Assembly: GCA_026874595.1 (NCBI GenBank) | Contig: CM049310.1 | Span: forward strand, 31,311,558 to 31,375,557 | Direction: 5' to 3' | DNA: 64,000 bases | DNA from: Sipunculus nudus | Taxonomy: Eukaryota; Annelida; Sipuncula; Golfingiida; Sipunculidae | In this document: piece by piece, positions 4,714 through 61,700 of the stretch | Layout of the letters: every line of letters begins with the position of its first letter | Position numbering within the stretch: the stretch's first letter is position 1 | The notes under the pieces: generated by a model | The model's input: only the letters and a program-made list of their open reading frames with translations | What the model was told of the DNA's origin: nothing | Databases searched by the model: none | Made by a program: the position numbers and the translations under genes

Positions 4714-7700
4714 CTGTTAAAAAGCAGACAAAATGAGGAGTCTGTATTCAATGGTACAATATGAAAATTGTAGACACAGTTCATGGCAACAATCAAATTC
4801 ATCTGTCACATACTACTTATATAAAATATGGACACGACCGTTCATGAATCATTTGAATCTAACAAAAATTACATTAAAATGGATATCTCTACTTACTGCA
4901 GTTGAGTTCATCACTGAAGTCTCCACAGTTGTCTGTACGGTCACACTGCATGTAAGCCTTGATGCACAAGTCATTGTTGCAGTGGAACAGGTCTGATGCT
5001 GTGCAGTCTGTAAAACAAGATGAGTTTTCATTCAGTTACAAGGAAAAGGGAAAGAAAAAAGTAAGTTTTGCAATGGTAGTGCTGGCAAGCAGTTAAAAAG
5101 AGTACCATGTTTAATTGAGACAGATTATTTTCAAAACAACCCTGAAATACTGTGCCTGCTGAGTGGCATTAATACCTTGGCAAAGTCGGCCATTTAAGGA
5201 CATTAAAACAATACAGACATTAATACACAAGTGTCATCATGTTTTATTTTTGGTTTCTTTCATTCAAAATTTCCTGGTCTTCTATTTAAATATCTTCACA
5301 AAAATTTATTTTGAATCCTTCTGATTTTTTCCAACACCCTAACTTTGGGGGATCCGTTGACTGACAAAGCTACCAAGCAACCAAAATGTCAGAAAAGCAA
5401 AGAGTAATTTTATATATGGAGTTAAGAAAAAGTAGTAAATACTCACTACATCCATATTCATCAGAATTATCTCCACAATGGTCAACACCATCACATCTCT
5501 GCTCATTAGGGATGCAGACTCCAGAGTTGCATGCAAATGTCCATCGTGGGTCACAAACTGAAAAGGAGGGGCAAATTAAGATCCTACAGGTCTAAATGAT
5601 GAACAAGGGACGACTCTGAATATGTATATAGGTTGACTGATCATCCTCAAAACCGCACACAAATACCAGCAGGTTGAGAGAGCAACTAGTTGATGATGTC
5701 TGGGTTAAATGCTCTGGTAGACTCCAAGGTTCTGAAAAGTGTTGTGAAGACTTTACACCATGGCCTCCACTGAAAGCACTGTTTTAAGCCTTGACCATGA
5801 GAAATAGTACACTGGCATTTAAACAACTATATATTCATCAATCTATCAGTGAAAACAAAATTGGATAAAAACATCTTATTTACTATGTTATAAACAGATA
5901 AGGCACAGCTATGAAACACTTACCACATCCTGATGGTTCATCAGATGAGTCATCACACTCAGGGTTACTGTTACAGTAGTTGACACCATCAATACACATT
6001 CCACTGTCACATGAGAACTCATGGGCTTCACAGGCTGTAATACAAAATACATTAAGTCAGGTCCTGTTACAGTAGCTGACACCATCAATACACATTCCAC
6101 TGTCACATGAGAACTCATGGGCTTCACAGGCTGTAATACAAAATATATTAGGTCAGGTCCTGTTACAGCAGTTGACACCATCAATACACATTCCACTGTC
6201 ACATGAGAACTCATGGGCTTCACAGGCTGTAATACAAAATATATTAAGTCAGGTCCTGTTACAGTAGCTGACACCATCAATACACATTCCAATGTCACAT
6301 GAGAACTCATGGGCTTCACAGGCTGTAATACAAAATATATTAGGTCAGGTCCTGTTACAGTAGCTGACACCATCAATACACATTCCAATGTCACATGAGA
6401 ACTCATGGGCTTCAATGGCTGTAATACATAATACATTAAGTCAGGTCCTGTTACAGTAGCTGACACCATCAATACACATTCCAATGTCACATGAGAACTC
6501 ATGGGCTTCACAGGCTGTAATACAAAATATATTAGGTCAGGTCCTGTTACAGTAGCTGACACCATCAATACAAATTCCAATGTCACATGAGAACTCATGG
6601 GCTTCAATGGCTGTAATACAAAATACATTAAGTCAGGTCCTGTTACAGTAGTTGACACCATCAATACACATTCCAATGTCACATGAGTACTCATGGGCTT
6701 CACAGGCTGTAATACAAAAAACATTAAGTCAGGTCCTGTTACATTAGTTGACACAATCAATACACATTCCACTGTCACATGAGAACTCATGGGCTTCACA
6801 GGCTGTAATACAAAATATATTAGGTCAGGTCCTGTTACAGTAGTTGACACCATCAATACACATTCCACTGTCAAATGAGAACTCATGGGCTTCACAGGCT
6901 GTAATACAAAATATATTAGGTCTGGTCCTGTTACAGTAGTTGACACCATCAATACACATTCCACTGTCACATGAGAACTCATGGGCTTCACAGGCTGTAA
7001 TACAAAATACATTAAGTCAGGACCTGTTACAGTAGTTGACACCATGAATACACATTCCACTGCCACATGAGAAATCATGGGCTTCACAGGCTGTAATACA
7101 TAATGCATTAAGTCAGGACCTGTTACAGTAGTTGACACCATGAATACACATTCCACTGTCACATGAGAAATCATGGGCTTCACAGGCTGTAATACAAAAT
7201 ACATTAAGTCAGGTCCTGTAACAGTAGTTGACACCATCAATACACATTCCGCTGTCACATGAGAACTCATGGGCTTCACAGGCTGTAATACATAATACAT
7301 TAAGTCAGGTCCTGTAACAGTAGTTGACACCATCAATACACATTCCGCTGTCACATGAGAACTCATGGGCTTCACAGGCTGTAATACATAATACATTAAG
7401 TCAGGTCCTGTTACAGTAGTTGACACCATCAATATACATTCCACTGTCACATGAGAACTCATGGGCTTCACTTGCTGTAATACAAAATACATTAAGTCAG
7501 GTCCTGTTACAGTAGATGACACCATCAATACACATTCCAATGTCACATGAGAACTCATGGGCTTCACAGGCTGTAATACATAATACATTAAGTCAGGACC
7601 TGTTACAGTAGTTGACACCATGAATACACATTCCACTGTCACATGAGAAATCATGGGCTTCACAGGCTGTAATACAAAATACATTAAGTCAGGTCCTGTT

Positions 7701-10700
7701 ACAGTAGTTGACACCATCAATACACATTCCGCTGTCACATGAGAACTCATGGGCTTCACAGGCTGTAATACATAATACAATAAGTCAGGTCCTGTTACAG
7801 TAGTTGACACCATCAATATACATTCCACTGTCACATGAGAACTCATGGGCTTCACTTGCTGTAATACAAAATACATTAAGTCAGGTCCTGTTTCAGTAGT
7901 TGACACCATCAATACACATTCCAATGTCACATAAGAAACCATGGGCTTCACAGGCTGTAATACAAAATACATTAAGTCAGGTCCTGTTACATTAGTTGAC
8001 ACAATCAAACCCCATTCACTGCAACATGAGAACTCATGGGCTTCACAGGCTGTAATATAAAATACATTAAGTCAGATTCTGTTACAGTAGTTGACACCAT
8101 CAATACACACTCCACTCACATGAGAACACATGGGCTTCACAGGCTGTAATACAAACTACATTAAGTCAGGCCCTCCAAGACGTTACACCAGATACAGGCT
8201 GATAATAATTCCCTTATTGTTCCTAAATTCTACGATGTCTTCACTGGGATATACTGCAGACATTCTATGTACCAATCAGCTTAATAACAAAGACACTATA
8301 CTTACCTGATTTACCTGGTGCTATTAATAGATATATGTGAAATTTATGATTGAGTCATTAACCTCTTGCTTGGCATCTCTGTATAACCTGTTTAAATTTT
8401 CATAAAGATCCAACCAAAACTGATCAGATTATGAGTTATATCATAAATGTACAAAGTGTAAAATTCAGAGTTTGAAAATCCTAAAATAAATCTAAACAGG
8501 AAGGGGTGTGTATTGTGATAACCTAATGTAAACAGGAAAGGGTTAATTCAATTTGATCGTCCTCAAACAAATTTATGAATGGACAGATGAATGACCAGGG
8601 GATTACTATAGGGTACCTGATTTTTCAAGTTGGGCCTTACTAAACAAACAATAAAACACTCACTGCAGTTGTGTTCATCTGTGTAGTCTCCACAGTCATT
8701 GTTACGGTCACACATCTTGGTCTTCATGACACACAAGCCGTTATTACAGGTCATCTCATTTTCTTTGCAAGCTGAAAGGAAGAACCTATTACATAAATAC
8801 TACTAAATAAATTACATAATAACTATGATTTAATATTTGGAACCTTCTAAAAGATGTGAGACCTCATGCAAATATGATAGAACCAGATAAAGCTGTATTT
8901 GCATGCAAAAAAGTGAAGTGCCCAATGGTCACATAATTTCAGGAAGTCATTTCAAGATACACCTTAAACCACTTTTTGATGATATTTAGTCATTGTTGGA
9001 ATCACAAAAGTGCTAATAAGTTGCACAAATATGGTCAAGATGAACCAAAAGTTGATCAGGTTGAAAGATTCAGTTTGATACCTTAATTCCACTTAATTTT
9101 ACTCCATTTCAGTGGCCCTGTCCACCTGTTTTTTTTTCGCGATAATTTTTATAGTGCACTAAAGCTTCCCTTTATTTTCCCCAGAGGCAAATCAGACAAA
9201 TGTGGCGATTATCTAACAGCAAAACAATACTCTCCAATGTATGGATTCCATATGACCAATTCAGAGGGAAAAATGACTGAACTGATGTAAAGTCTTGCGA
9301 CATATCGACCTTATATAACGGTTAAATATATATCCCCATGACAACTTGAATTGATGACCTCACCATATGGTATTTGTACATCATGTGTTTGTATTAAGGA
9401 GGGTATTGGAGTGGGCAACCACCTCCTATACTGAAGAAACTTTTAAACAATTTAGGCTATAAATGGTGCATTCTGGAGAAATTTTATGATTTTCCAAATT
9501 TGTTGGAAAAATAAAAAAAAAAAGGGGGAGGGGCCACACCATTATCCAGCCCTGGTATTAAGTAAAAGATCTACTCACGGCAGTCCTTCTCGTCACTTTT
9601 GTCCCTGCAGTCATTGAAGCCATCACAGACAGCATCCATCTGCAGACACTGTCCTTGGGAACCTGTTGTACACTCAAACAGACCAAGGCTGGCACAGTCT
9701 GTTATTAAATTAAAATATTCACAATAATCTCATGAATACCTGAATCTTACTAAATATCAATGGCAAACATAGATGCAATACCGATCACTCTCAAAGGTTA
9801 TCACCAAAGTTCAGGATATCTCCAGGGTAATTCCAAGACTTTTTGGGAAGTTCAAAAGCAAAATACTTTAAAAAATGCAGTGGTTTATGTGAGAAATTAA
9901 GAAACAACCATTCTGAACTCTTATAAAACCACAGATGAGACAGGAACATAAGACTAAACAGCTTGTAGGTTTATGATAAAACAGATGATCATATTTACGA
10001 ATCCCCATAATTCAGATAGTAGGTAATCCTGCAGTTTGACAGTGACAAGTAAGTATACTGGACTCCAGAATTACCATAATGAATTTAAAATAACCAAAAA
10101 GCAGCAAAAAGAAAAAATATAATTTTGCTACATAATTATGAAGTTCATGCAGAAATGAAATATAGTATATCTTAAATTAAATTAAGAAGAAACTACTTGG
10201 TAGCAATACAACAACGATACATAGAGGTGACACCCTTTAGAAAATGAACTTTATTTTATTTAAAATTACAAACTCTTGTAGGGGACATGTACTCACCACA
10301 TTCACCCTCGTCACTGTTGTCAGGACAGTCATTACGTCCATCACACTGACGGTTTTTGTTGATGCATACACCATTGTCACATTTGAACTGGTTTTCAGTG
10401 CATGCTGGTAAAAAATAAAGAAATAAATCAGTCAATATGATCTTTAATCACATTCAAGCCATAATGCCTATCATTGGAACCCTCAACACATATTTTCAAT
10501 TGCTTTAGATTTCCAACTGGTTCAAAATTCAACATAAATGTAAACTATAAACATCCTAGAAACATAAATGTAAACTATAAACATCCTAGAAACATAAATG
10601 TAAACTATAAACATCTTATCTGTCCAAACTGTCTTTTATTGTTTACAATGAGAAGATACCAGGACAAAGAAAATATATTAAGTAATACAGTAACAAGTCA

Positions 10701-16700: not shown

Positions 16701-19700
16701 TCAGTTGAAGAACAAAGGTACTATTCACATAGGTAACTTAATTACTGTATTAAAAGCACCTGTTCTTATATCAAAATGAATTATACAGTCCATAAATAGA
16801 GAAGGTATTAATTTATAGTAACTATATTGATGAACAAGGTGTTTGCTAACATATTCAGAAAAAAAAATAATTTACCTTTACTTACCTGTACAGGTAAACA
16901 TATGTGTTATATGTTAATAATCATAGAATGTGCTCTTTGGGTCAGCAAGCTTTTCAGGTGAAAAATATTTGATTTCCACAGAAAAATCCAATTTTACTTG
17001 CACATTCTGGTTCGTTGGTGGTTCCCTTTCCAGTATTAAACCAAATCATTTACCTTTTTCTTACCTTTAATTAATAATTACCTTAGAGTGAAAAAAAATC
17101 CTTAAATTTCCCTGTTTTTATCAAATGGTTAATGGGTTACCTGAACAGGATGAAAGGGGTCATTTTGGTGATATACCAGTGAGTGGAAATACAGTTAGTA
17201 CAGATTTACCTGTTTTTACCTGTATATACCTTAGCTACATACATATCAAACCAGGTATGTAGAAAATAAATGAAATAACATGATGGACATATACCTGACA
17301 GTAAAAGCTGAAAATTTCACAAAGATACCTTTAACGGTTACTGAGTTAATGTCTCTTATATAGATTCATGTCAAAATGTGGAAAAAATGCAAAATAAATC
17401 TGAACAGTAGGAGTGTGACAATCCACAGGCTAATCTGAACAGTAAAGGGTTAAACGGTGCAAAAACAAATCAAGGTGACACCTCCAGTCTTGGAAACAAG
17501 AAAAAGCTATCCAAGTCCTGGCAACCAAATTTCAAGAACAATCCATCAGGCCCAAGGTTAGATATCTGGCCTTTATATGCACTTTATTCTTTATCTGGGG
17601 TGCTCCAATACAACACCCCGTGTATACACAGGTCAAAGTGACCACATTTGAGGTTTACAAGGATATCTTTTTAGAACTACTATATGTGCCCTGCTAATTT
17701 ACAAGCAGACAGCCAACAGACAAAGCAATGCGACTTTCAGCTAGCTGAGCTAAACAGTTTATTATTTATTAATAATTTGTCAAATAACACCGTATAATTA
17801 CTTTACAGGTAGGAATTATACCACTGGCCTACTGATGGCCACTTTCCTGGAACATCTCATGTGTCAGTCAGTCAACTTTAGAAAATGAGAAGTAACTATG
17901 ACCATTCCTTTGAGTACATATCTTTTTCATATAGTCTCAATCCTCTAAGAATCCTGTCAAGACAACTAATATCTTATCAGCGAATGTCATATCTTGAAAA
18001 TATTTCTACTCAATAATGAGACACAATTTTCTGTAATAAAGCTCCATCCCATACAAACCCATCTACAAATGGACTGCAAAAAAGATGCTACTCACCGCAG
18101 TTCTCCTCATCAGACCAGTCTCCACAACCATCAAAACCATTACACACTGTATCCATGGTGATACATTTGTCATTGTCACACTTGAAGTTGGCTTCATGGT
18201 CACCACAGTCTGCAATTTCATAGAATTAGCATGGTCAAAATTTGTTAACTCCATAACATTTTACCTTCATGGTTGTTCCACATATTTATCAGAAACATCT
18301 GACTTTATTTTGGCACTTAGACTGCTATGTCTTTACCATTACCATGGTTATGTGAAGCCAACAAAGGTAAATTTCATTATTCCCTATACTTAGTCTTCTG
18401 TTAACTGGCAACCTGGGAGATATAAAATGAGTTATTTAAACTATTGTATGTGGTCCTGTGTGTTTTCACCAAAACATCTTGCCATAAAAACTAGAAATAT
18501 CTAACAATGATGACGTCATAGTATCCATAGGCCTTGGTCAAACCATCTTTTCAGCAGCTTTTTTCTCTACCCCTTGGGAGTTACAGAATGGACCTTAATC
18601 TACTGACACACCACATTTGGCGTAACTGCAGTTATTCCTGTTGCACCTTCATGTGTACAAATAAAACTGTATAAAACAAACAAGAAATTAAAGAGGAATG
18701 GATAATGGTCAAAGGGTTAGGGAATACTGAAGGTACAACCATCATCAAACTACAGAGTAATTCTGACAAATAAATAAGTTTTAAGTCACTACATGTCATG
18801 AAATAAAGTTGGTCTAAACACTGTTTCTCTTTCACAACCACAAGAGCATTCACTGAAAAAGAGTACTCTTGACCAAACCAATTTCACTGACATCACACAG
18901 ACAAGTGTACAAATGTTACAGGCACATTTCATCATGTTATTACATACCACATCCTGAGGCCTCATCCTCACCACCAGGACAGTTACGGACACTGTTACAG
19001 TAATCCTTGGCAGGAATACAGCCAGCTCCTGGACACTTGAACTGGCCTCGTGTACATGCTGCAAGATATATTCAATATTATATACATGTTAACTTACCTC
19101 ATGTACATGTTCCATAATACATTTCACATAGCACACATTTGTAAACACTTAAAACTGATATGTAGTGCATGTTGGGAAATAATTTTCAAAATGTAAATGC
19201 AACTACATATGGATTTATTCTTCAAATAAACTTCTCAAGCACATATCAAGAAGAGTTGGGAATCCTTCATTGAGCAACTGTAAGGTGATGCAGTGTTTAG
19301 ATTAAAGATGTCATTAATAAATGTACATCTTGATGAAAAACAAGAAGTTTCTAAACCACTGACTGTATTGACCAGATACTTACTGCAGTTAGCTTCATCA
19401 GACCAGTCTCCACAGTCATCCTTGTTGTTACACTCCTCAGACAGAGGGATACAGCGACCTGTACCACAGGAGAACTGGAACTCTGTACAGTCTGTAATAA
19501 AAGAATATGGTCAACCATAATCTTCAGGAGAACAGGAACTCTGTACAGTCTGTAATAAAAGAATATGGTCAACCATAATCTTCAGGAGTACTGGAACTCT
19601 GTTTAAGTCTGTAATAAAAAAATATGGTCAACTATAATCTTCAGGAGAACTGGAACTCTGTACAGTCTGTAATAAAAGAATATGGTCAACCATAACCTTC

Positions 19701-22700
19701 AGGAGAACTGGAACTCTGTACAGTCTGTAATAAAAGAATATGGTCAACCATAACCTTCAGGAGAACTGGAACTCTGTACAGTCTGTAATAAAAGAATATC
19801 TCAACCATTATCTTCAGGAGAACTGGAACTCTATATGTTGAGATCATAGAAACAAAACCACACAGACCAATAAGGCTTCAATACCTTTAAAGTTCATTAA
19901 TAATGACTTGTTTCATCAGATCCACCTTTTTTCACAGATTTTTAAATACCCATGTATGATGTAGTGAGCATTTCATTGAAGAAAACCTTATCTGAAGACC
20001 TTAATGCCACCATCGCTTTGGTTTGAGCCCTTTTCTAATACAATCAACCAATTGCTATTTCAAATAGTCCAAGAGGTGATCAGCCCTTCCTTTAATTTAC
20101 TAAGGACAAACCTTACTTATCACAAAGGTTAAAACAGAAAATACACTGTATTATAAGAATCAGCCAACTTATTGTTATCACACTGAATAGCTACAAGCAA
20201 GTGCTGCTCTGCTGGCAGAATAATGAAGATGTATAACTTACTGCAGCTGAGTTCGTCTTCTCCGTTTGTACACTCGTCAAAACCGTTACAGACCTGGTTT
20301 GCTCGGATACATGTGTCATCATCACATGTGAAGGCCAAGGTTGGGTGACAAGCTGAAGTTGAAAAGATTCCCATAAATTTTCAATTGCAACATTTTAAAA
20401 AGTTAAAGTTTGTAAAATACAATGTAATTATATAATGAAATGTACTCGAGGTAGACATCCTGTTAAAACTGAAATATAAGGATTCTTGCATTTTCTATAA
20501 AATTAACACCTTGTTGCAATCACAATGATAAATTATTCTGACTTGATACCAAATGAAATCAACAAGAATTTTATAACTCACTGCAGTTAGCCACTTCATC
20601 ATCACCATCCGGACAGTCTTCAGTGCCATCACAGTACTTGAGAGCGTCCAGACACAGACCCTGTTGACACTGAAATTCTCCACTGGCACAGGCTACAAAA
20701 CCAAGAAATTATGCACTAAATCATACATTACAGAGATTTTTATCTCAAACTCAAGGAGCGCTTTATTGATATTCTTCAGCAAGGAAAGCTAACCTGGAAT
20801 TCCTGTCATGTAAAACATTAATGTATTTAGTGTAACAAGAAGCTCTAATACTTCAGCAAACAGACATTAAATCTGTTTTCAGGTATTGACTTTTTATTAG
20901 AGGAAAGACTCACAGCATGAAGCCTCATCACTGCCATCAGCACAGTCCAGGTTCCCATCACAAACCATACTGTTGTCCAAACAACGGCCAGAAGTGTTGC
21001 ACGAGAACTCAAATGCAGAACAATCTGAGATGAAAAATAAATTAATTTTAGGAGTACTGAAGTTTAGAAGTTAAATAAACACACTAATACAAACGATTAA
21101 TGTAAAACCAACAACATAGAATAGTTTCCTTGGGCCATCCTTATAAAATTCTGTGTTGGGACTAACACTGGTCCACAAAATATCACCAGAAAAGGAGAAA
21201 AGATATTTACTTTTAAGGCAGGTTCTGAAATATATTGCACCTTTAAGTTTTCATACGTGAACCCATGTTAAGGGTTTTTGTCTGGCTAAAAAAAACAAAA
21301 CACTGTCTATACATGCAAGTCATTTGTAAAGCTTATATAGTAGCAGTGTTCTAAAAAAAAAAAGGTACAGAAAAGCTACAAATATGCAACCTAGAATGAA
21401 GAAAACTCTTTTGACAATACTGAAGTTCAGCAATAAAAAAGAACAATTAACAAACAATAAAAAATGATCAAATGTAACACAGTTAACACATAATTTTCTT
21501 TTGAAAGCTGATTAAACAAATAAATAGAACCATGTCCATCAGTTTAGCCATAAATTCATATGAAATTAATTATCTTTTTAATAGAAATTAACACATACAA
21601 AATTTGTAATACTTTGTGTACACTTGAGACATATTCCAATTCAGACTAGGATACATATGCACTTCCAGTGTAAAAGATATTCCAGACATTTCAAACCATG
21701 TAAAGTAACTGGAATAATAATTATACCCTGTTTGCTTTAATACAACTGCTTGTTCTTCCAAATAACAGCAGCATTGTCCTGCCCTAATGGATACAATCCA
21801 TTTCTGACATTTTAACCTTTTTATCTACTAGTTTATGACAGGCAGTAATGTAAGTTTCAATCAGTTTCACTTACCGCAGTTGGATTCATCACTCCAGTCC
21901 CCACAGTCATCATTTCTGTCACAACTGGCAGTCTTCGGAACACACTTGCCATTGTTACAGGAAAGGTGGAAGTCCTCAAGGCAAGCTTGGAGTAGAAAAA
22001 TATGTTTATGTTAATCAACTGGTAAGCAATCTGAACACATGTAACATTCTAAGTAGGAAGTCTTTACTATATTAATAGTGATAACAGTAAGAGCTTTCCT
22101 GTGTTTTATCAGAAAATTAGATGTACCATCACAAAACTGAACACCATGTATACTTACTACAGTTAGCATCCTCATCTGTTCCATCAGGACAATGAGGTGA
22201 ACCATCACAAAACTCCACACCATGTATACTTACTACAGCTGGCATCCTCATCTGTTCCATCAGGACACTGTGTTGTACCATCACAATACTGAACACCATG
22301 TATACCTACTACAGTTGGCATCCTCATCTGTTCAACCAGGACAGTATGGTGTACCATAAAAAAATGAACACCATGTATACTTACTACAGTTGGCATCCTC
22401 ATTTGTTCCATCAGGACAGTGTGGTGTACCATCACAATACTTAACACCATGTATACTTATTACAGTTGGCATCCTCATTTGTTCCATCAGGACAGTATGT
22501 TGTACCATCACAAAACTCCACACCATGTATACTTACTACAGTTGGCATCCTCATCTGTTCCATCAGGACAGTGTGGTGTACCATCACAATACTGAACACC
22601 AGGGATGCACACTCCAGATACTGGACAGCTCACTTGGTTCTCTGTGCAATCTAATAATAAAGAGGAGAAAATGTTTACCAACTGTTGCTCTATCTTATTC

Positions 22701-31700: not shown

Positions 31701-34700
31701 AGTCAGGTACACAAGTCCCCCTTTCGGTAAAAAAATACAGTCTAATAAGGTTTCAGAATATTTTTTTTCAAATTTTGACAATTTATGCTGTCCTTTCATT
31801 ACGATAATGCAGTATATTAAAATGTTTGCAATTTACACGGTTGCTGACAACTAGGAAATGACCCGCTTCTTGCTATAATGAGCTTCATTCACGGGCGATT
31901 AAGTATGAGTGCAAGAGGCACGGGTATTGCGTAATCAGTTGGGATTTTATCCAGGGCATCGGCCCCTGTGTATTTGACATCTAATTATGTTACACACAAA
32001 ATCATTTGGTGCTTGCGTAAGTTTGCAAACATGTAAACGGTTAAAGCCTGTGGGCCGTGGTATCTGAACTACAGACAGGTGACAAATGGCTGACTACAGC
32101 ACGGATTAGCGTTCACTCGGTACGGGGATGGCTGCCTGTCCAAAGAAGCCCCAAACTAGGTCACACTGTTCACCTGTGTACTTACACGCGGAGGATATTA
32201 TCACTCCGTTCGGAAGTTCCTACTTAAAAATCACCCAAAATCGTAGTGAATGACTGCGGCCCTGAGCAGAGCTCAGGGAAAAAATAGACCGAAGTTCAAC
32301 CTGACATCGATATCGCAATGAAAAAAAGAACACAAAACCTGCAAGACTTTGTCAAAACTAGTACTCAACAGAATGTGAAATATATGATTCATTCACGAAA
32401 ACTTTCATCAAAAAGATAGGAAAACAGAGTTTGATCAAAGAAGGACTGACGTGTTGCCTCCTTGCTCTCTCTGTGGTTCGCTATGCTGGATACCTACGCT
32501 GCATATATGCAGTTATATTGCATGTAATTGTTCATTAGTGCGTCAGTCTGTTGAGGCAAGGAAGACCAGAGTTAATTAAAACTTGAATTAAACTGTCGTT
32601 TAAGGCCTTGTGTTTTCTCAGAATGTATAATAAAAATCTCTGATAATAAAATTACTGCCCTTTATCCACGGATATGACCAAGCTGAGGACAGCTGACACG
32701 GTCACGTGGCCTTTTCAGGCGATTCGCTTGGTTCAACTTCGCGCGTTCTTTTCAATATAGATTATATAAAATGTAGAGAAGTCCGCGACAATCCTGTTTT
32801 ATTAACATGCTTAAATAGTCATGTTTTTATTGATATCTGACACAGCAATCATTAGAAGTTTAAAATAAATGAGCAATGACGGAAAGTGTGAGAATTCCTT
32901 GGCTGTTCTATTATCGCCCACCTGCCGATTCTGGGTGTCAGACAATCTTCATTTCTGCAAAATACTTTAAGTATCGACCTGTTATATTAATCTTAGAATC
33001 TTTATGATGCCCAATAACCTTTTAATAGATTGCACTACAAAACAAATGACATTTTTACAGTTAAAAAAAAAATGGAGTGGTATGAATGTCAAAAGCAGTT
33101 GCCAGTCATACAATTCACCTTTCCCCAGTGGCCTGTCACACTACTCTCGATGGTCATGTATGCTGCTTCAGACCTGTTTTGACCTCCAAAATGGCTTGAA
33201 AAAATTTTTACCCAATATTTAACCTGAAAATTTATACTCCACTAATATGCGAGATCAACTTATATGTGAGTTTTTACGGTATGTTGTTGTTGAGTGTTCG
33301 CGTGCTTAAGAAAGTGTCACTGATGGAAAGATGGAAGGACGGATGGACAGAAGGACGGACTGACACAGAGATCACTATAGGGCACCGCTTGTCAAGCGGG
33401 GCTTAATTACATTAAATGGATATCTCTACTTACTGCAGTTGAGTTCATCACTGAAGTCTCCACAGTTGTCTGTACGGTCACATTGCATGTAAGCCTTGAT
33501 GCACAAGTCATTGTTGCAGTGGAACAGGTCTGATGCTGTGCAGTCTGTAAAACAAGACGAGTTTTCATTCAGTTACAAGGAAAAAAAAAAGTAAGTTTTG
33601 CAATGGCAGTGCTGGCAAGCAGTTAAAAGAGTACCAGGTTTAATTCAGACAGAATATTTTCAAAACAACCCTTAAATACTGTGCCTGCTGAGTGGCATTA
33701 ATACTTCGGCAAAGTCAGCCATTTAAGGACATTCAAACAGCACAGACATTAATACAAAAGTGTCATCATGTTTTATTTTTGGTTTCTTTCATTCAAAATT
33801 TCCTGGTCTTCTAGTTAAATATCTTCACAAAAATTTATTTTGAATTCTTCTGATTTTTCCAACACCCTAACTCTGGGGGATCCGTTGACTGACAAGGCTA
33901 CCAAGTAACCAAAATGTCAGAAAAGCAAAGAGTCATTTTATATATGGAGTTAAGAAACAGTGGTAAATACTCACTACATCCATATTCATCAGAATTATCT
34001 CCACAATGGTCAACACCATCACATCTCTGCTCATTAGGGATGCAGGTTCCAGAGTTGCATGCAAATGTCCATCGTGGGTCACAAACTGATAAGAAGGGGC
34101 AAATTAAGATCATACAGGTCTAAATGATGAACAAGGGACGACTCTGAATATGTATATAGGTTGATTGATCATCATAATCAAAACCTCACACAAATACCAG
34201 CAGTTTGAGAGAGCAACCAGTTGATGATGTCTAGGGTAAATGCTCTGGTAGACTCCAAGGTTCTGAAAAGTGTTGTGAAAACTCTACACCATGGCCTCCA
34301 CTGAAAGCACTGTTTTAAGCCTTGACCATGATAAATAGTACACTGGCATTTAAACAACTATATATTCATACATCTATCAATGAAAACAAAATTGGATAAA
34401 AACATCTTATTTACTATGTTATAATCTGATAAGGCACAGCTATGAAACACTTACCACATCCTGATGGTTCATCAGATGAGTCATCACACTCAGGGTTACT
34501 GTTACAGTAGTTGACACCATCAATACACATTCCACTGTCACATGAGAACTCATGGGCTTCACAGGCTGAAATACAAAATATATAAGGTCAGGTCCTGTTA
34601 CAGTAGCTGACACCATCAATACACATTCCACTGTCACAGGAGAACTCATGGGCTTCAACAGGCTGTAATACAAAATACATTACGTCAGGCCCTGTTACAG

Positions 34701-37700
34701 TTATTGACACCATCAATACACATTCCACAGTCACATGAGAACTCATGGGCTTCACAGGCTGTAATACAAAATACATTACGTCAGGCCCTGTTACAGTAGT
34801 TGACACCATCAATACACAATTCACTGTCACATGAGAACTCATCAGCTTCACATGCTGTAATACTAAATACATTAAGTAAGGTCCTGTTACAGTAGTTGAC
34901 ACCATCAATACACATTCCACTGTCACATGAGAACTCATGGGCTTCAATGGCTGTAATACAAAATACAATAAGTCAGGACCTGTTACAGTAGTTGACACCA
35001 TGAATACACATTCCACTGTCACATGAGAACTCATGGGCTTCACAGATTGTAATACAAAATGCTAAGTCAGGTCTCGTTTTAAGTTACTGGTACATTATTT
35101 CTCTATCTGTATATATTAAGCCTTCATCAGGCATTATAATAAGAGTGATGTATAGTATTTATAATAATTTCCCACCAATGTACTGCTACATAAAATGGGT
35201 ATAAAAGACTCCATTATATGTAGTTTTTGTGAAGAAACAGACTACATTGAACACATTTTCTATTCATGTGAAAAACTGAAACACTTTTGGTTGGAAGTAG
35301 AAAGCAAAATTGCGGTAATAGCTTTCAAAACTGCAAAAGTGTCAAATTATCGGAAGCTGATGTAATACTCGGATACAAATGTGAGGTTATAGTGAGACTA
35401 CATCAAAAGTCAATCAAATTATCCTCATAGCAAAAATATCAGTAAATTTAAATATGGCAATACAGGCAACCTGTAATTTGTCTTTGTAGTAGAAATGGAG
35501 AATAGAATTTAAACTGTTAAAGTATCATATGTAGTTTCCTACAATCCTAGGTTCTAGCTGTTGGAACCAGATTGGATCTAATTGTAAAAGGCAGCTTATT
35601 AGGCAATAAACTGTGAAAAAAACAGTGATGAACTAAAGCCAAAATAACTGGCAATTATTTATGACATTTAAATTATAAACAAATATCTATGATATACAAG
35701 AGTTTTATACATTATTACTCATAACAGTGCTAATCAAGAGAAAAAACTGAATGTCATAATAGATCTATATTTAGTTAAAAAAATATAAAAACATAAAATG
35801 ATCCTCTGGATGGAAAAGAACTGAGAAACAAAAAAATCACGGATGCATGGATTGACTCCTTTTATACTTAAGAATTAATTTCATTCTTAGCTGTAATTTA
35901 TGAACCTCTCATGAGGACAACTGAATAGCACATTTAACTCTGAAGGAAACAAATAAATACACTCACTGCAGTTATGTTCATCTGTGTAGTCTCCACAGTC
36001 ATTGTTACGGTCACACATCTTTGTCTTCTTGACACACAGGCCGTTATTACAGGTCATCTCATCTTCCTTGCAAGCTGGAAGGAAGAAATTATTACATAAA
36101 TACCACTACATAAATTACCTAATAACCATGATTTTATATTTGGAACCTTCTTAAAGATGTGAGTACTCTTGCAAATATGATATAAGTACAGCTTTTTACT
36201 TGTTTGAAATGGGGTTACCAGCATAAAATCTGTCCAAGCTTAATTAGTACCTCGTATCAAGACCAGTTACTCTGTAAGGTTCTGGTCACGGTTTCCCCAC
36301 TACATGAAGCAATAAATGCATTTAGTTCTCAGGGGCAAATTATACAGGAGTATAGAAGGAGGAGGAGTGGGGGGGGGGGGGGATGGAGGGTTGAGAGGGA
36401 AGGTTAGCAGGCCTCGAAACTAACTTTTTACCTTATGGTCCCGGTACCGTCCCGAAATGCAGAATGAACCGTCCCGGGTACACAAATCACCGTCCCAGCT
36501 AGGACTCTCATGCCCCCCCCCCCCACCAAAAAACACACAACAACAATTATACAACAATTATTTTATTACTAGTGTCTGATCGGTTTAACATCACTCATCT
36601 GATTGGCAGAACCTGTGACATAGGGATTTGAGTGTGAACAGAATATAGTGGAGCAAGACTTTTTATGGAATCCATTGTAATTTAAAACTAGATGTGTCGG
36701 AACGACACGAATGTCCCCGCCTAGGGCAAATTAGAAACAATTGTAAAATTTTGAAACATTTTTTTAAGTTCAGGAGGTGTCGTATGGTCAAAAGTAAGTC
36801 AACAAGGGCAAAATGCAAACTCGATCTGTAACGGGTCATTATCAAGCAACACACCAAAAATCATGCCAGTATATGCAGGCATTGTGAAAAAAAGTCCATA
36901 CATGTGCATTTTCCATAAAAAATTCTGTCTTTCATGAAATGTTCTATGTTTAGGAGCCGTAAAACAATCAAAAGTAGGTCAGCCGGGACGAAACGCAACG
37001 CGATCTGTAACTGTCATTATCTGCCCACACATAAAAAATCAGGGTGGTATCTACAGGCACTGAGGAAAAAATGTCAGTACATATGCATTTGTTATGAAAA
37101 TTTCTATTTTTCATGAAACTTTCTATGTTCAGGAGCAGTCAAATGGTCAAAAGTAGGTCAACTGTGACAAAACGTGAACTCGATCTGTAACTGGTCATTA
37201 TCTGCCCACACACCAAAAATCAGGCCAATATCTGCAGGCATTGCGAAAAAAGTCTGTACATGTGTATTTGTCATGAAATTTCATATTTTCCATGAAATTT
37301 TCTATGTTCAGGAGCTGTAAAACGGTGAAAAGTAGGTCAACCTGGACGAAACGCGAACTCGATCTGTAACTGGTCTATATCTGCCTACAAACCAAAAATC
37401 AGGCCAATATCTGCAGGCATTGCGAAAAAATTCCGTACATGTGTATTTGTCATGAATATTTCTATTTTTCATGAAATTTTCTAAGGAGGCATAAAACGTT
37501 CAAAAGTAGGTCAACCGGGATGAAACGCGAACTCGATCTGTAACTGGTCTATATCTGTCCACACATCAAAAATCAGGCCAATATCTGCAGGCATTGCGAA
37601 AAACAAGGCCGTACATGTGTATCTGTCATGAATATTTCTATTTTTTATGAAATTTTCTAAATTAAGGAGGCATAAAACATTTTTGCAATGTAATTCAACA

Positions 37701-40700
37701 ATTTTGGGGAAGAAGGTAAACGGGGCCTCCTTCTTTGCAATGAAGTAGGCACAGTTAAATAGCTTCTCTAATTTCTCCCGAAAAGCAGCATCCATGTTTT
37801 GGAATGAACTGACAATCGGGGCTTGGGCAGGGGCTTCTTGCACACTCTTAGCACCAACACAGTCCAAGTGACTCCTTGTTGAAGCATGATCTTGTAGTGT
37901 TCTGATTCTGATTTTAGACCCCCCTACTCCACAAACCAATGTATTGTTTCTTGAAATTTTGGGGATTTCTCTGCATAGAGAACAATACATAACTGTTTCT
38001 TGCTCATCATAATTCACCCAGTCATAAATTTTCTTCCAATTCTCTTTAAAACACCTTTTCCGTTTGCTCTCGTACTTTTTTTTTAGAACAACAAGATATA
38101 GGTGCAGACTTCCCTTCTGAGGAACACGTGGCTTGACAAAAAACTGAACTGAAATATGCTGAAGTACCCCCACACCTTTTAATGATAATATAGAACGGTT
38201 ACCTTGCTGCTCAGGTATAAAAAGGGGGCGGGTTGTCAAGGGTAAAGGCTGTTAAATTTAATGAAAGATCTGTACTATACTTTCTGGCATATATCAGCAG
38301 GATAGTTTCACTTTAAATTAAAAGAAAAAGGAAATCTAATTATAAATAATCTGCCTTATTGACAATGCAGTTTCTACAAATAAAACCGACTTGAATTGTT
38401 TATAGTTTTAGCCATAATTTTAGCCAAATATGTGCTGTTAATACTAAATAATAGTTAAATAATCAGGTTAAGAAGTCCAGACGTTTTCAAATTTTGACAG
38501 TGCGGCATGCAACATCGATCGCCGGGGGCTGTGTTCATGCAATAGGGCCCGTTAGGATATATTTTCACAACGTGCCGTATTCTATTACTGCATAATATAA
38601 ATATTGTTAGTGAATGCAGAATACCCCGGTAGCGTCACCTGGTGTTTGCGTAAGAGACTAAGAATGTTGGGCCATGAAAAAAGTTACAACACAAACGTCA
38701 ATAGGTCTTCAGCTGATGTCCCAACGAAACTGGTGACATTGTAAAAATTTTACCTTGATCATGATAGCTAGACTGAAGAAATGTCTGGTGCGGGACAAGT
38801 TAATTTGCACAATATGCGCGGGACACTCCAGGGGTACATGGCGGGAACACGTGGACATAATCATATGCATGAGACTTCCAGGCCAAAACCGATGACGTCT
38901 GTTGGAATCCCTATCCAAATTATCACGTGTTGTCCACACTCGGTTAATTAGCATATAATGGACACCTATTTTATGAATAAACGCGCAACTCCGCATATGC
39001 AAATTATCACGTGGTGCGCAGTTTTATTAGCGATCAGCATACACTGTCACTGACACATTTTCCAGTGCAACCGTCGTGCCCAAGAACTTCCATGTGCAGT
39101 GTAATTTACAGATACGGCACACAGTGGTCTATCTCTGGCTTTGTGTCATTATGGTACACGGACATTAACAAGATTAACAGAGGAGAGTTTTGTAATTATT
39201 ACGCTGATTTACTTTGACATTTGACAAAGACATTCAATATTCAGTCGCCTAAAATTCCGTCATTTAAAATTTTCTTTCGGCATTCTTGCTGGACTTTCGT
39301 TTTTGGCGAAGTATTATATATAATGCGCGCGGGCCCTGTCTCTATATTGTCTTCATTGCGTATATAATATATGCTTACTCGGGGAAAATTTTAATAGGGA
39401 ACCCTGCTCTTCCGAAATTGCCAACTTGGTTGCTGCGAATTAATGATATGCGAGGTGCCGTCTTTGCAGCGCAATATGTAGGCCCTAAGCCCCTGTGGTA
39501 TGAAAACAACTGACCAATGGCGAACAGCTTCTAAAGTTATAGTAAACAACATTCATTCATGATGGACATATGTTTATGGAAATTTCTGTGACTTGGACCA
39601 ATCATTTTAATGTATCGTAAATTATTCAGAGTTACACGCTTGTGATGCTATTACCATTAGACCCAGCATAACTTTTTAAAATACGAGGTCCCGTATCAAC
39701 TAATTTCTAAATCTTTGAATTTGATGCATAATGTGTAGTTAACTGTTAATAATTAAAATAATACTGATTGAATAGGCAAGGGTTAATGACTGCGCACCTT
39801 ACTATACTGGTCACCGTGAATCAAAATCTGGTCAGGTCCATACTAGCGATTCTTCACGCGGCCGACTGGTACAAAAATTCTTAACCGCCGGTCCGCGCAT
39901 ACACGTGTCTGATAACGACGCTGTGTTGTATTACATGATACGATTTTATGTATCAATGACACTTGACAGGAGCAACATTCTAGACTGGACGGCAGCAGCT
40001 GTGTTGTGTGTACCACTCCTTTTCCGTCTTGGCAAAACACATAAAATATGAACTGTGATAAAAATTTTGCTGAGATGTTCCGAGGGTTTCTACCGTCCCA
40101 GCCTCGTCTCGGACGGCAAATATGATCGTCCCGAGCAAAACTCCGATCGTCCCCGGGACGACGGGACGCCGTTAGTTTCGAGGCCTGGGTTAGGGAGTGG
40201 GCAGCCGCAATAATCTACTCCTGATACCAAAAGATCTACTCACGGCAGTCCTTCTCGTCACTTTTGTCCCTGCAGTCATTGAAGCCATCACAGACAGCAT
40301 CCATCTGCAGACACTGTCCTTGGGACCCTGTTGTACACTCAAACAGACCCAGGCTGGCACAGTCTGTTATTACATTAAAATATTGTGATAAACTGAGCAA
40401 AGGGTATTCACTATAATCTCAGGAATACCTAAATCTTACTAAATATCAATGGCAAACATAGATACAACACAGTCAGTGATTAAATTAAAATATTGTGATA
40501 TACTGAGCAAAGGGTATTCACTATAATCTCAGGAAAACCTAAATCTTACTAAATATCAATGGCAAACATAGATACAGCACAGTCAGTGATTAAATTACAA
40601 TATTCTGATATACTGAGTAAAGAATATTCATTATAATCTCATGAATACCTGAATCTTAATAAATATTATTGGCAAACATAGATGCAACACAGATCTCTCT

Positions 40701-58700: not shown

Positions 58701-61700
58701 CAGGGAGTGATAAGGTGGGAAACTTTGCCGCCCTTGGTGTTGTTTATTCATTCCATTGAAGTAGACCATGGTTCTTTTTCTGCTACATCTGTCAGGACAA
58801 TTTCTCCACCAATCCTCTATTTTCGATTTTAAACCTTAAAATACTTTTTTTAACTCTTGTTTTTTTGCAATTTATTGAATAGATTGGCAGACTGGCTTCT
58901 GTATTCATAACTTCCTGTCTGTTCAACTAACAGGAGTACGGGCAGAATGAGTTAATACAGGTGTAGGCTGTAGCAATGGTTTCCTGCCAAACCATATGGA
59001 ATGCACATGCTATGAAATGTTAAACATGCGTACATGAGGCCTCATTGGAATTTTTCATAACACTTTTATACAAGTATTTATATATTTATCCCTTTTTGTC
59101 TAAAACTTTAAGAGATACACAAGTGCTTGGAGTATGGGCATTATAATTTGCAATGCAATAGAAGGAATGTAAGGGCAGGGATTTTGCATTAAAACTTGGC
59201 AGACTCCCAAAAAATGGGAGCACTGGAATTTCTAACTGGATAACAATGATGCCATCATAATGACTATAAAGGCAATATTCTGTTAATTTCTGAAAATGGC
59301 AGCATGTTCTAATTTTCTTTCATTTTAAAAACTAAAGTTTTTAATATTGCAATTTTCAACATACAAAAGTCTTTCATCACATAAAAATATCTAGAAAAAG
59401 CATTTTTATTTATGATTAAAGATCTTAAAATCAAAGGCTTTAGTCAATATTTATTATTGCAAATGACAGTGAAATATTTTTATCTCATATATACCATTTT
59501 AAGCTTCACCCCTGTGATGTCAAAACTGCATTTGCACAGATCTATCTCCCCATTGCTGTGAATACTCCATAATGGAAAAGTTAAGTATTTGGTTCACTTG
59601 GTATTATATGAACAACACTCAATTCTTGAAATTCATAATACTGAATACATGTATACTTACTACAGTTGGCATCCTCATCTGTTCCATTAGGACAGGGTGG
59701 TGTACCATCACAATACTGAACACCATGTATACTTACTACAGTTGGCATCCTCATCTGTTCCATCAGGACAGTGTTGTGTACCATCACAATACTCAACACC
59801 ATGTATACTTACTACAGCTGGCATCCTCATCTGTTCCATCAGGACAGTGTGATGTGCCATCACAATACTGAACACCATGTATACTTACTACAGTTGGCAT
59901 CCTCATCTGTTCCGTCAGGACAGTATGTTGTACCATCACAAAACTCCACACCATGTATACTTACTACAGTTGGCATCCTCATCTGTTCCATCAGGACAGT
60001 GTGGTGTGCCATCACAATACTGAACACCAGGGATGCACACTCCAGATACTGGACAGCTCACTTGGTTCTCTGTGCAATCTAATAATAAAGAGGAAAAAAG
60101 GTTTACCAACTGGCCCCCTTTTATTCACAACATGCTATATGCTTCAGGGACTAGGGTCCAGCTCAATCCTAGTCAGTAGCACATACATGCTTCAAATAAA
60201 CATTAATCCCTTAGAATCAAAAATACTTTAAGAACAATTTACTTAACTTTCTCATTGTTCATTTATTAATTATTGATCTGTCTTATTCACAACACTAAGT
60301 ATGCTGCAGAGGGTCCAGCTCAAACACCCATTCATGTAGATTTGTTTACTTACTGCAGTTTCCTTCATCGCTCCAGTCACCACAGTCATCTTCAGAGTCA
60401 CAAGTCTCTGATTTTCGGATACACAACCCGTTGTCACACTTGAACACATCTGCTCCATCACAAGCTGAAATATTAAATTGATTAAAAGATATAAAGTGTC
60501 CTAACCATGAACTTTATTATATCTTTTCAATACCTATTATGTGTTCCATCCATGAATTTAATTATATCTTTCAATATTTCAATTAAATTTTTTGTTCCCA
60601 AATTCCTAATCATTCCATAGTTATACTAATAATTCAGTTACTGAACAGCTTAAAGTCATATATGGTTCTAATAATGTCTACTGTTCTAAATTTGAGTTCA
60701 TTGTGTTCCTGTAATTATATAATTAAACTCATATCCTGGATAAATTACTCACTGCAGTTCATTTCATCAGACTTGTCCTCACAGTTGAATACACCATTAC
60801 ACTTGTAGATCTTCTCAACACATTCCCCAGAGTCGCACTTGAATGTGAACTCAGTTTCACAGTCTGGTGGTAAGAAACAAATCATAATGTGATTAAATCA
60901 AAGTGTTCTAGGTAAATGGTTAGGCAAAAAAAATAAATAAATAAAGCATGCAATATTCTTATAAAGCCATAGATGCGAAAATTTGTGACAGTTAAACCAG
61001 TATCACAAAAAAATCTTTCATAAAACTGAATATAAACAATACTGATACCACAGCAATGGTTCTTTGATAAATGCATGTGATTTAAAGTGGAACATGCATG
61101 TGTTTGTGTGTATGCACACTTGATTCATGTGGGATATACGAGGATTCCAGAAGTTTTCTATAAGCTGTGCCCATCTGTGCATGAGATCCAAGATGTTTCA
61201 TGTGAAAGATAATGATTATTTATCTGAAATAATCTGGTGATATATCACACATCAAACTATGTTATAAAATGGTAAAACAATCTGCTGAATCATAACTCAT
61301 AAAGGACACTAAAGATATGAACTACACACCACAGCCTGGTTTTTCATCAGATGAATCAGGACAATGTTCAGTTCCATCACAGAACTGGATGGCTGGGATA
61401 CACAGACCCTGGTCACACTTCACCTGCCCAAAACTGCAGTCTGAGGAAATGAAAACAGTGCATTTAGTTCTGTCACAAACTGGGAACAGATGACCTAATG
61501 GTTCATTTACTGGTAATTCCTCCATGGCACAAATCAAGCGTTCATAGCCAACATGGCTAGATATATTGGTTCTGAATATTTTGTTTTTTAAAAACAATAA
61601 AATTATTTTCTGGCAAACAGTCATTATAAGGTTTTTAGTTAATATCTGAGTCACTTTGCACACAAGAAACATATCATGCCAGCACTTACACCAGGGTTCA

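Follow-up and report, generated by a model that had tools for sequence, protein, structure and literature searches.

An exon of a predicted giant LDLa gene in the sipunculid annelid Sipunculus nudus is preceded, inside its upstream intron, by 22 tandem decoy copies of its own acceptor and first half. The exon lies in a stretch of 64,000 nucleotides (nt) on contig CM049310.1 (positions 31,311,558 to 31,375,557; assembly GCA_026874595.1), which is contig 5 of the 153 that make up a 1.43-Gb assembly; the whole stretch is called the window here, and positions refer to it unless noted. The array is probably a minisatellite that spans an intron–exon boundary (a 'mirage') and that would be tolerated through exon definition, with the splicing choice and the neutrality both inferred from the DNA. 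The evidence for this comes from the anatomy of the unit, from arrays of the same family at the paralogous exon in other modules of the gene, and from the splice-site content of 107 decoys in total.

The Exon, Its Array and the Repeat Unit

The features that define the array are all read from the minus strand.

5924..6034 (-): real exon encoding one LDLa domain; 111 nt, phase 1-1, acceptor AG at 6035-6036, donor gtaagt from 5923 down
6035..6063 (-): intron half of the real unit, with the true acceptor; 29 nt, GACCTGACTTAATGTATTTTGTATTACAG
6064..8172 (-): 22 decoy units; 20 of 96 bp, one of 95 and one of 94
8664..8771 (-): preceding LDLa exon (CKENEM...), the donor of which must bypass all 22 decoys

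The 96-bp unit consists of intron positions -29 to -1 (GACCTGACTTAATGTATTTTGTATTACAG) and exon positions +1 to +67, and the donor half of the exon is absent. Tandem Repeats Finder places the array at 5968-8174 (period 96, 23.0 copies, 93% matches, score 3812), and a stepwise walk upstream of the exon recovers the real unit followed by the 22 decoys (6064-8172), in agreement with an earlier note on this DNA that had counted about 22 copies of the acceptor plus half an exon. The composition given there, an acceptor with the first 67 exon bases, is that of the unit, and the donor half is missing from every one of the 107 decoys (82–97 bp). The repeat is not a product of chance. The true acceptor is separated from the upstream donor by 2629 nt, of which the decoys occupy 2109 nt, and the intron downstream of the exon (5558-5923) is 366 nt long.

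The LDLa Gene and Its Modules

The window and 191 kb around it were joined into a gap-free stretch of 255 kb, in which the gene occupies the minus strand with 223 LDLa exons, 43 of them in the window. All 223 have AG before them, GT after them and matching phases, as the search criteria required; among LDLa candidates with a score of at least 25 and a length of at least 99 nt, none was dropped for want of AG or GT sites. LDLa matches go on past both ends of the 255-kb stretch (31147969 and 31415348). The exons form modules of 21 in a fixed order: ten modules are complete, 12 exons belong to an eleventh that runs off one end of the stretch, and a single exon of a further module lies at the opposite end. 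Each complete module keeps all 21 LDLa exons in order and covers about 16–32 kb.

The ratio of nonsynonymous to synonymous substitution rates (dN/dS) is 0.06–0.23 for module pairs with dS >0.05, and the predicted gene therefore looks to be under purifying selection. The highest ratio of all 55 module pairs, 0.45, belongs to a pair with only 12 differences. All 10 real exons that stand behind 96-bp arrays have an open frame, an acceptor and a donor. Together with the low dN/dS, this supports the earlier proposal that productive splicing would have to choose the last acceptor of the series.

Strength and Coding Consequences of the Decoy Acceptors

Decoy acceptors were scored with a weight matrix trained on 104 distinct acceptors, from the 192 exons outside acceptor-train slots. 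In the window, 20 of the 22 decoys fall within the range of the gene's real acceptors and six score as high as the true one. Over all arrays, 84 of the 107 decoys reach the median of the real acceptors, and the intron part ends in CAG in 99, in TAG in four and in CAA in three, and is gapped there in one. Donor-like sites are a different matter: no decoy reaches the 5th percentile of real donors (9.75), and the best donor-like score is 8.94. An acceptor and a donor paired inside the decoy, as in a decoy exon, are thus found in 0 of 107.

An in-frame TGA is retained in 102 of the 107 decoys. According to the earlier note, the use of any upstream copy would bring TGA into the LDLa frame; this is nearly so, since reading from the window decoys meets a stop in 21 of 22 (at residue 24 in 17 of them), whereas decoy 21 carries a one-base deletion, meets no stop within the extended exon and leaves the real exon out of phase. 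In the minus-strand frame that starts in decoy 21 (8049 down to 5924) the whole array is open for about 700 codons, probably just because 96 is divisible by three. The decoy exon halves vary by 5.7% at codon position 2 and 3.2% at position 3, and show no sign of coding constraint when positions 1 and 2 are compared with position 3.

Origin of the Unit

Exon and array diverge right after CTGTAACAG in the window, as had been noted, but this point is not the original breakpoint. In module 66849 the exon reads CTGTAACAGGAACCC, which places the original divergence two bases later, and the outlying module 93709 also has G at the exon position concerned; the divergence appears two bases early in the window because the window exon has T at +68. 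The intron above the first unit of module 66849 reads TTAAAATGAGACCTGAC. The paralogs suggest that exon ...CAGGA was joined to intron ...TGAGA|CCTGAC at a 2-bp microhomology (GA); the join CTGTAACAGGACCTGAC would need only this shared GA.

A founding slip or exchange between CTGTAACAG (+59 to +67) and the acceptor word TGTATTACAG (-10 to -1), as first suggested, does not fit these data. The two words lie 67 bp apart, not 96, so that an exchange between them would yield a 67-bp unit made of exon only, with no intron, and the breakpoint in the paralogs is at CAGGA. The founding event was more probably a local tandem duplication that joined the exon at about +69 to the intron at about -29 at the GA microhomology, and that would have copied the acceptor, a branch-like CTGAC and half the exon. 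The array would later have grown and shrunk separately in each duplicated module, probably by unequal exchange.

Copy-Number Turnover Among Paralogous Arrays

The 96-bp array is present in 10 of the 11 modules, with 4, 5, 22, 6, 4, 15, 17, 15, 4 and 15 decoys. The array of the neighboring module also lies in the window.

34455..34565 (-): paralogous exon in the neighboring module
34595..35073 (-): array of that exon; five decoys of the 96-bp family

Modules -75416 and -95553 match letter for letter on both sides of the array, for 447 bp above it and for 612 bp below it, and carry 17 and 15 decoys, respectively, the difference being one extra ED unit pair in the repeat map; here, copy number changed while nearby bases outside the array did not. 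Over the whole modules, the exons of these two differ at 15 sites. Modules 6034 (22 decoys) and -34925 (four decoys) have flanks that are 98.5% identical over gap-free columns. The mean distance between units within an array is 0.031–0.111 (10 arrays, at least four decoys each), against 0.086 between arrays. An edge unit of odd length stands at the 5′ end in 6 of 11 arrays, a single-decoy array being counted.

The array with six decoys (module -18763) is composed of one decoy and five more beyond a 2058-bp insertion, the ends of which are, by eye, inverted copies of each other. Other trains are likewise split by about 1.2–4 kb of other DNA (exons -57352, -67700, -78796, -88020, -98933 and -105235).

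The eleventh module (93709) has no array of the 96-bp family, and its dS to the other modules is about 0.7 or more. The same exon in this module has a train of its own, twelve repeats of 58–59 bp with mostly weak sites; the real acceptor is also weak.

Probable Tolerance of the Array and Alternative Explanations

A tandem duplication of this kind would leave the complete exon and the only donor at the downstream end, and every upstream copy would be an acceptor without a partner for that reason. Exon definition would then pair the single donor with the nearest acceptor, giving the 111-nt exon, whereas decoy-derived exons would measure 207, 303, 399 nt and more (about 111+96k nt for decoy k). 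Splice sites closest to each other across the exon are preferred where the flanking introns are large (PMC9225289). With the nearest site preferred across the exon, the spliceosome could ignore the decoys without any special device.

Several points weigh against so simple an account. The decoys may see low-level or regulated use. Of the 107 decoy acceptors, 93 have kept a score no lower than the 5th percentile of the real acceptors, a result that neutrality with homogenization permits without strongly predicting it. Exon definition is not guaranteed, because the downstream intron is short. In addition, repeat families of the region with a period below 150 bp lean to an excess at exon boundaries (4 of 13 against 1.58 expected, P 0.06), and with a marginal 110-bp family counted there are five such boundary families (P 0.013).

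Of the alternatives, a regulatory train fares best, although it is improbable. The decoys would bind U2AF and U2 and compete with the true acceptor, leading to less inclusion of a skippable exon or to stop-containing transcripts prone to decay, with copy number as the dose. The acceptor scores described above are as this requires (93 of 107 within the real range, 84 reaching the median), as is the fate of the window decoys, 21 of which lead to a stop while the remaining one shifts the frame, and skipping of the 111-nt exon in phase 1-1 would preserve the frame. However, when decoy constraint was measured as Fitch steps on a FastTree tree, the decoy AG and CTGAC were not significantly more constrained than other columns (Mann–Whitney P 0.14), nor was CAG alone (P 0.14); selection that keeps the decoy splice signals is therefore unsupported as tested. 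The 22 and four decoys of modules 6034 and -34925 despite nearly identical flanks also speak against a dose, and the decoys are devoid of the donor that known decoy exons have (PMC12017769).

A role as donor of variation is slightly less probable still. Exchange between array and exon would, by conversion, homogenize or diversify the acceptor and the first half of the exon, between modules too. The real 96-bp unit is identical in modules 66849 and 6034, although the 100 bases of intron that follow it show 18 differences in 90 aligned positions, and 18 control slots free of trains have a mean of 9.2 differences over an equivalent 96 bp (minimum 1); moreover, the real unit of module -75416 is identical to its adjacent decoy. 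The comparison of modules 66849 and 6034 hints that the homogenization may extend to the real acceptor and half exon. The control-slot comparison covers the 24 of 45 module pairs in which controls differ by >2 on average. Between module 66849 and the eight other complete modules with a train, the similarity of the train slot is equaled by 0–3 of 18 controls, and in the remaining pairs by as many as 8 of 18 or 6 of 10. The protein segment is conserved, not diversified.

That the trains act as a copy-number rheostat, in which partnerless acceptors or donors tune the retention of in-frame LDLa exons, is doubtful to a somewhat greater degree. If it were true, variation in repeat length between modules or individuals would give rise to length variants of a giant receptor-like protein.

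Inflation of the copy number by misassembly is very unlikely, because ten paralogous modules carry their own versions of the array with private variants; the 117 units of these modules comprise 91 distinct sequences, and the 255 kb contain no runs of N. The exact copy numbers do come from one assembly, which also contains bacterial sequence. Productive use of the decoy halves, which would add half-LDLa peptides to the protein, can be practically dismissed: 96 nt is a multiple of three and read-through would be in frame, but TGA is kept in 102 of 107 decoys and codon positions 1 and 2 show no coding constraint relative to position 3.

Comparison With Known Systems

The reading of the array as a boundary-spanning minisatellite has a precedent in amphioxus, where mirages are minisatellites that span an intron–exon boundary in Adh3 and in the globin genes BflGb6 and BflGb9; the Adh3 data and reverse transcription–polymerase chain reaction of the globin genes suggest regular splicing (PMC3087553). 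Mirages have also been described in the amphioxus genes for troponin C and PGBD5 (PMC3902484). The present arrays conform to the anatomical definition of a mirage, as the unit spans the intron–exon boundary and the authentic exon and its other splice site are intact in 10 of 10. Shared with the amphioxus cases are tandem units that hold the boundary, a copy number that varies, many units with cryptic splice signals and an intact regular exon (PMC3087553, PMC3902484). Differences lie in scale: BflGb6 has six and three units in two haplotypes (PMC3087553), whereas 22 copies are found at one site here, and ten paralogous arrays of one family, together with both acceptor and donor trains, occur in one region of 223 LDLa exons. 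The array is a large and well-replicated case of a known kind, and is most likely neutral.

The decoy exons of retained introns in OGT, ARGLU1 and SF3B1 are similar in being rarely used intronic acceptors that are able to bind early splicing factors (PMC12017769). Unlike the present units, none of which is donor-like, decoy exons have both splice sites, and the effect in OGT depends on the decoy donor (PMC12017769). Intron gain by tandem duplication of segments with splice sites (PMC3087553) likewise involves tandem boundary copies inside a gene. Here, however, no unit has a donor-like site and the 21-exon order is the same in all ten complete modules; by these two measures in the genomic sequence, no new intron between copies is seen. 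NAGNAG tandem acceptors also place several acceptors in series, at a spacing of 3 nt; the spacing in the present arrays is 96 nt, with a separate branch-like motif and exon half in every copy. No published splice-site trains outside amphioxus were found among the titles and opening lines of the abstracts listed, most subscription papers being outside this scope.

The arrays amount to a natural experiment in splice-site competition, in which the same exon stands behind 4–22 near-identical donorless acceptors in ten modules of one gene. Production of a full-length message would demand a very low error rate at each decoy. The region contains 234 repeated boundaries (172 of acceptor type and 62 of donor type, not all with a usable site), and from this number, half-intact transcripts would need less than about 0.3% misuse per decoy. 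With these arrays it could be tested directly whether exon definition by itself is enough for such fidelity.

Other Splice-Site Trains and a Test of Boundary Enrichment

Acceptor-type repeats stand before 21 of the 223 exons and donor-type repeats after 11, with one exon in both counts by a single weak donor match. The families at boundaries are the 96-bp family, a 58-bp acceptor family, a 76-bp donor family, the 58–59-bp repeats of module 93709 and a marginal 110-bp family without AG. Those in the window, apart from the 96-bp arrays, are as follows.

19467..19832 (-): acceptor train with a 58-bp unit, before exon 19384-19491 (CTEFQ...); five decoys
22122..22601 (-): donor train with a 76-bp unit, at and after the donor of exon 22537-22650 (CTENQV...); five decoys
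59633..60029 (-): donor train in the next module, at exon 59965-60078; four decoys, all four scoring as high as the real donor
40357..40692 (-): marginal 110-bp repeat that abuts the acceptor of exon 40244-40363; two copies, no AG at the matching place

The 76-bp donor train is found at one LDLa exon slot in ten modules and reaches 17 copies in the most downstream module (-152573). The true donor heads the series in donor trains, and in both types of train the real site is the one nearest to the partner site of the exon. This position is a consequence of tandem-duplication geometry, and is also the site that exon definition would favor.

The strong claim that repeats target exon boundaries is unsupported: random placement of the 67 arrays would bring 28.0 of them onto a boundary, where 29 are observed, and 4 of 17 repeat families hold one against 2.85 expected (P 0.31; five families and P 0.134 with the marginal 110-bp family). 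A comparison with another 76 kb of this genome, made up of three further LDLa regions with 40 LDLa matches, gives 0 of 11 tandem arrays with a placed boundary; this is a weak control, with 51 testable boundaries (34 donors and only 17 acceptors placed for the 40 matches). Four boundaries in these regions have a second copy 864 or 988 bp away; they form two reciprocal pairs, which were taken as neighboring exons that match each other and were not counted.

Molluscan hemocyanin (PF14830) and big defensin (PF14862) had no match in searches run without a positive control. COX1 had 11 matches, of which the one inspected, on contig 123, is bacterial; no mitochondrial contig was recognized. Contig 123 (112 kb) carries a bacterial operon (cbb3-type cytochrome oxidase), and contigs 60, 61, 62, 66, 72, 74, 75 and 89 have COX1-like frames without stops and may also be bacterial, which suggests symbionts or contamination. 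Near the start of the window, a 50-bp repeat (1361-1888; 10.6 copies, 98% matches) is more uniform than the other long arrays and is perhaps a recent expansion.

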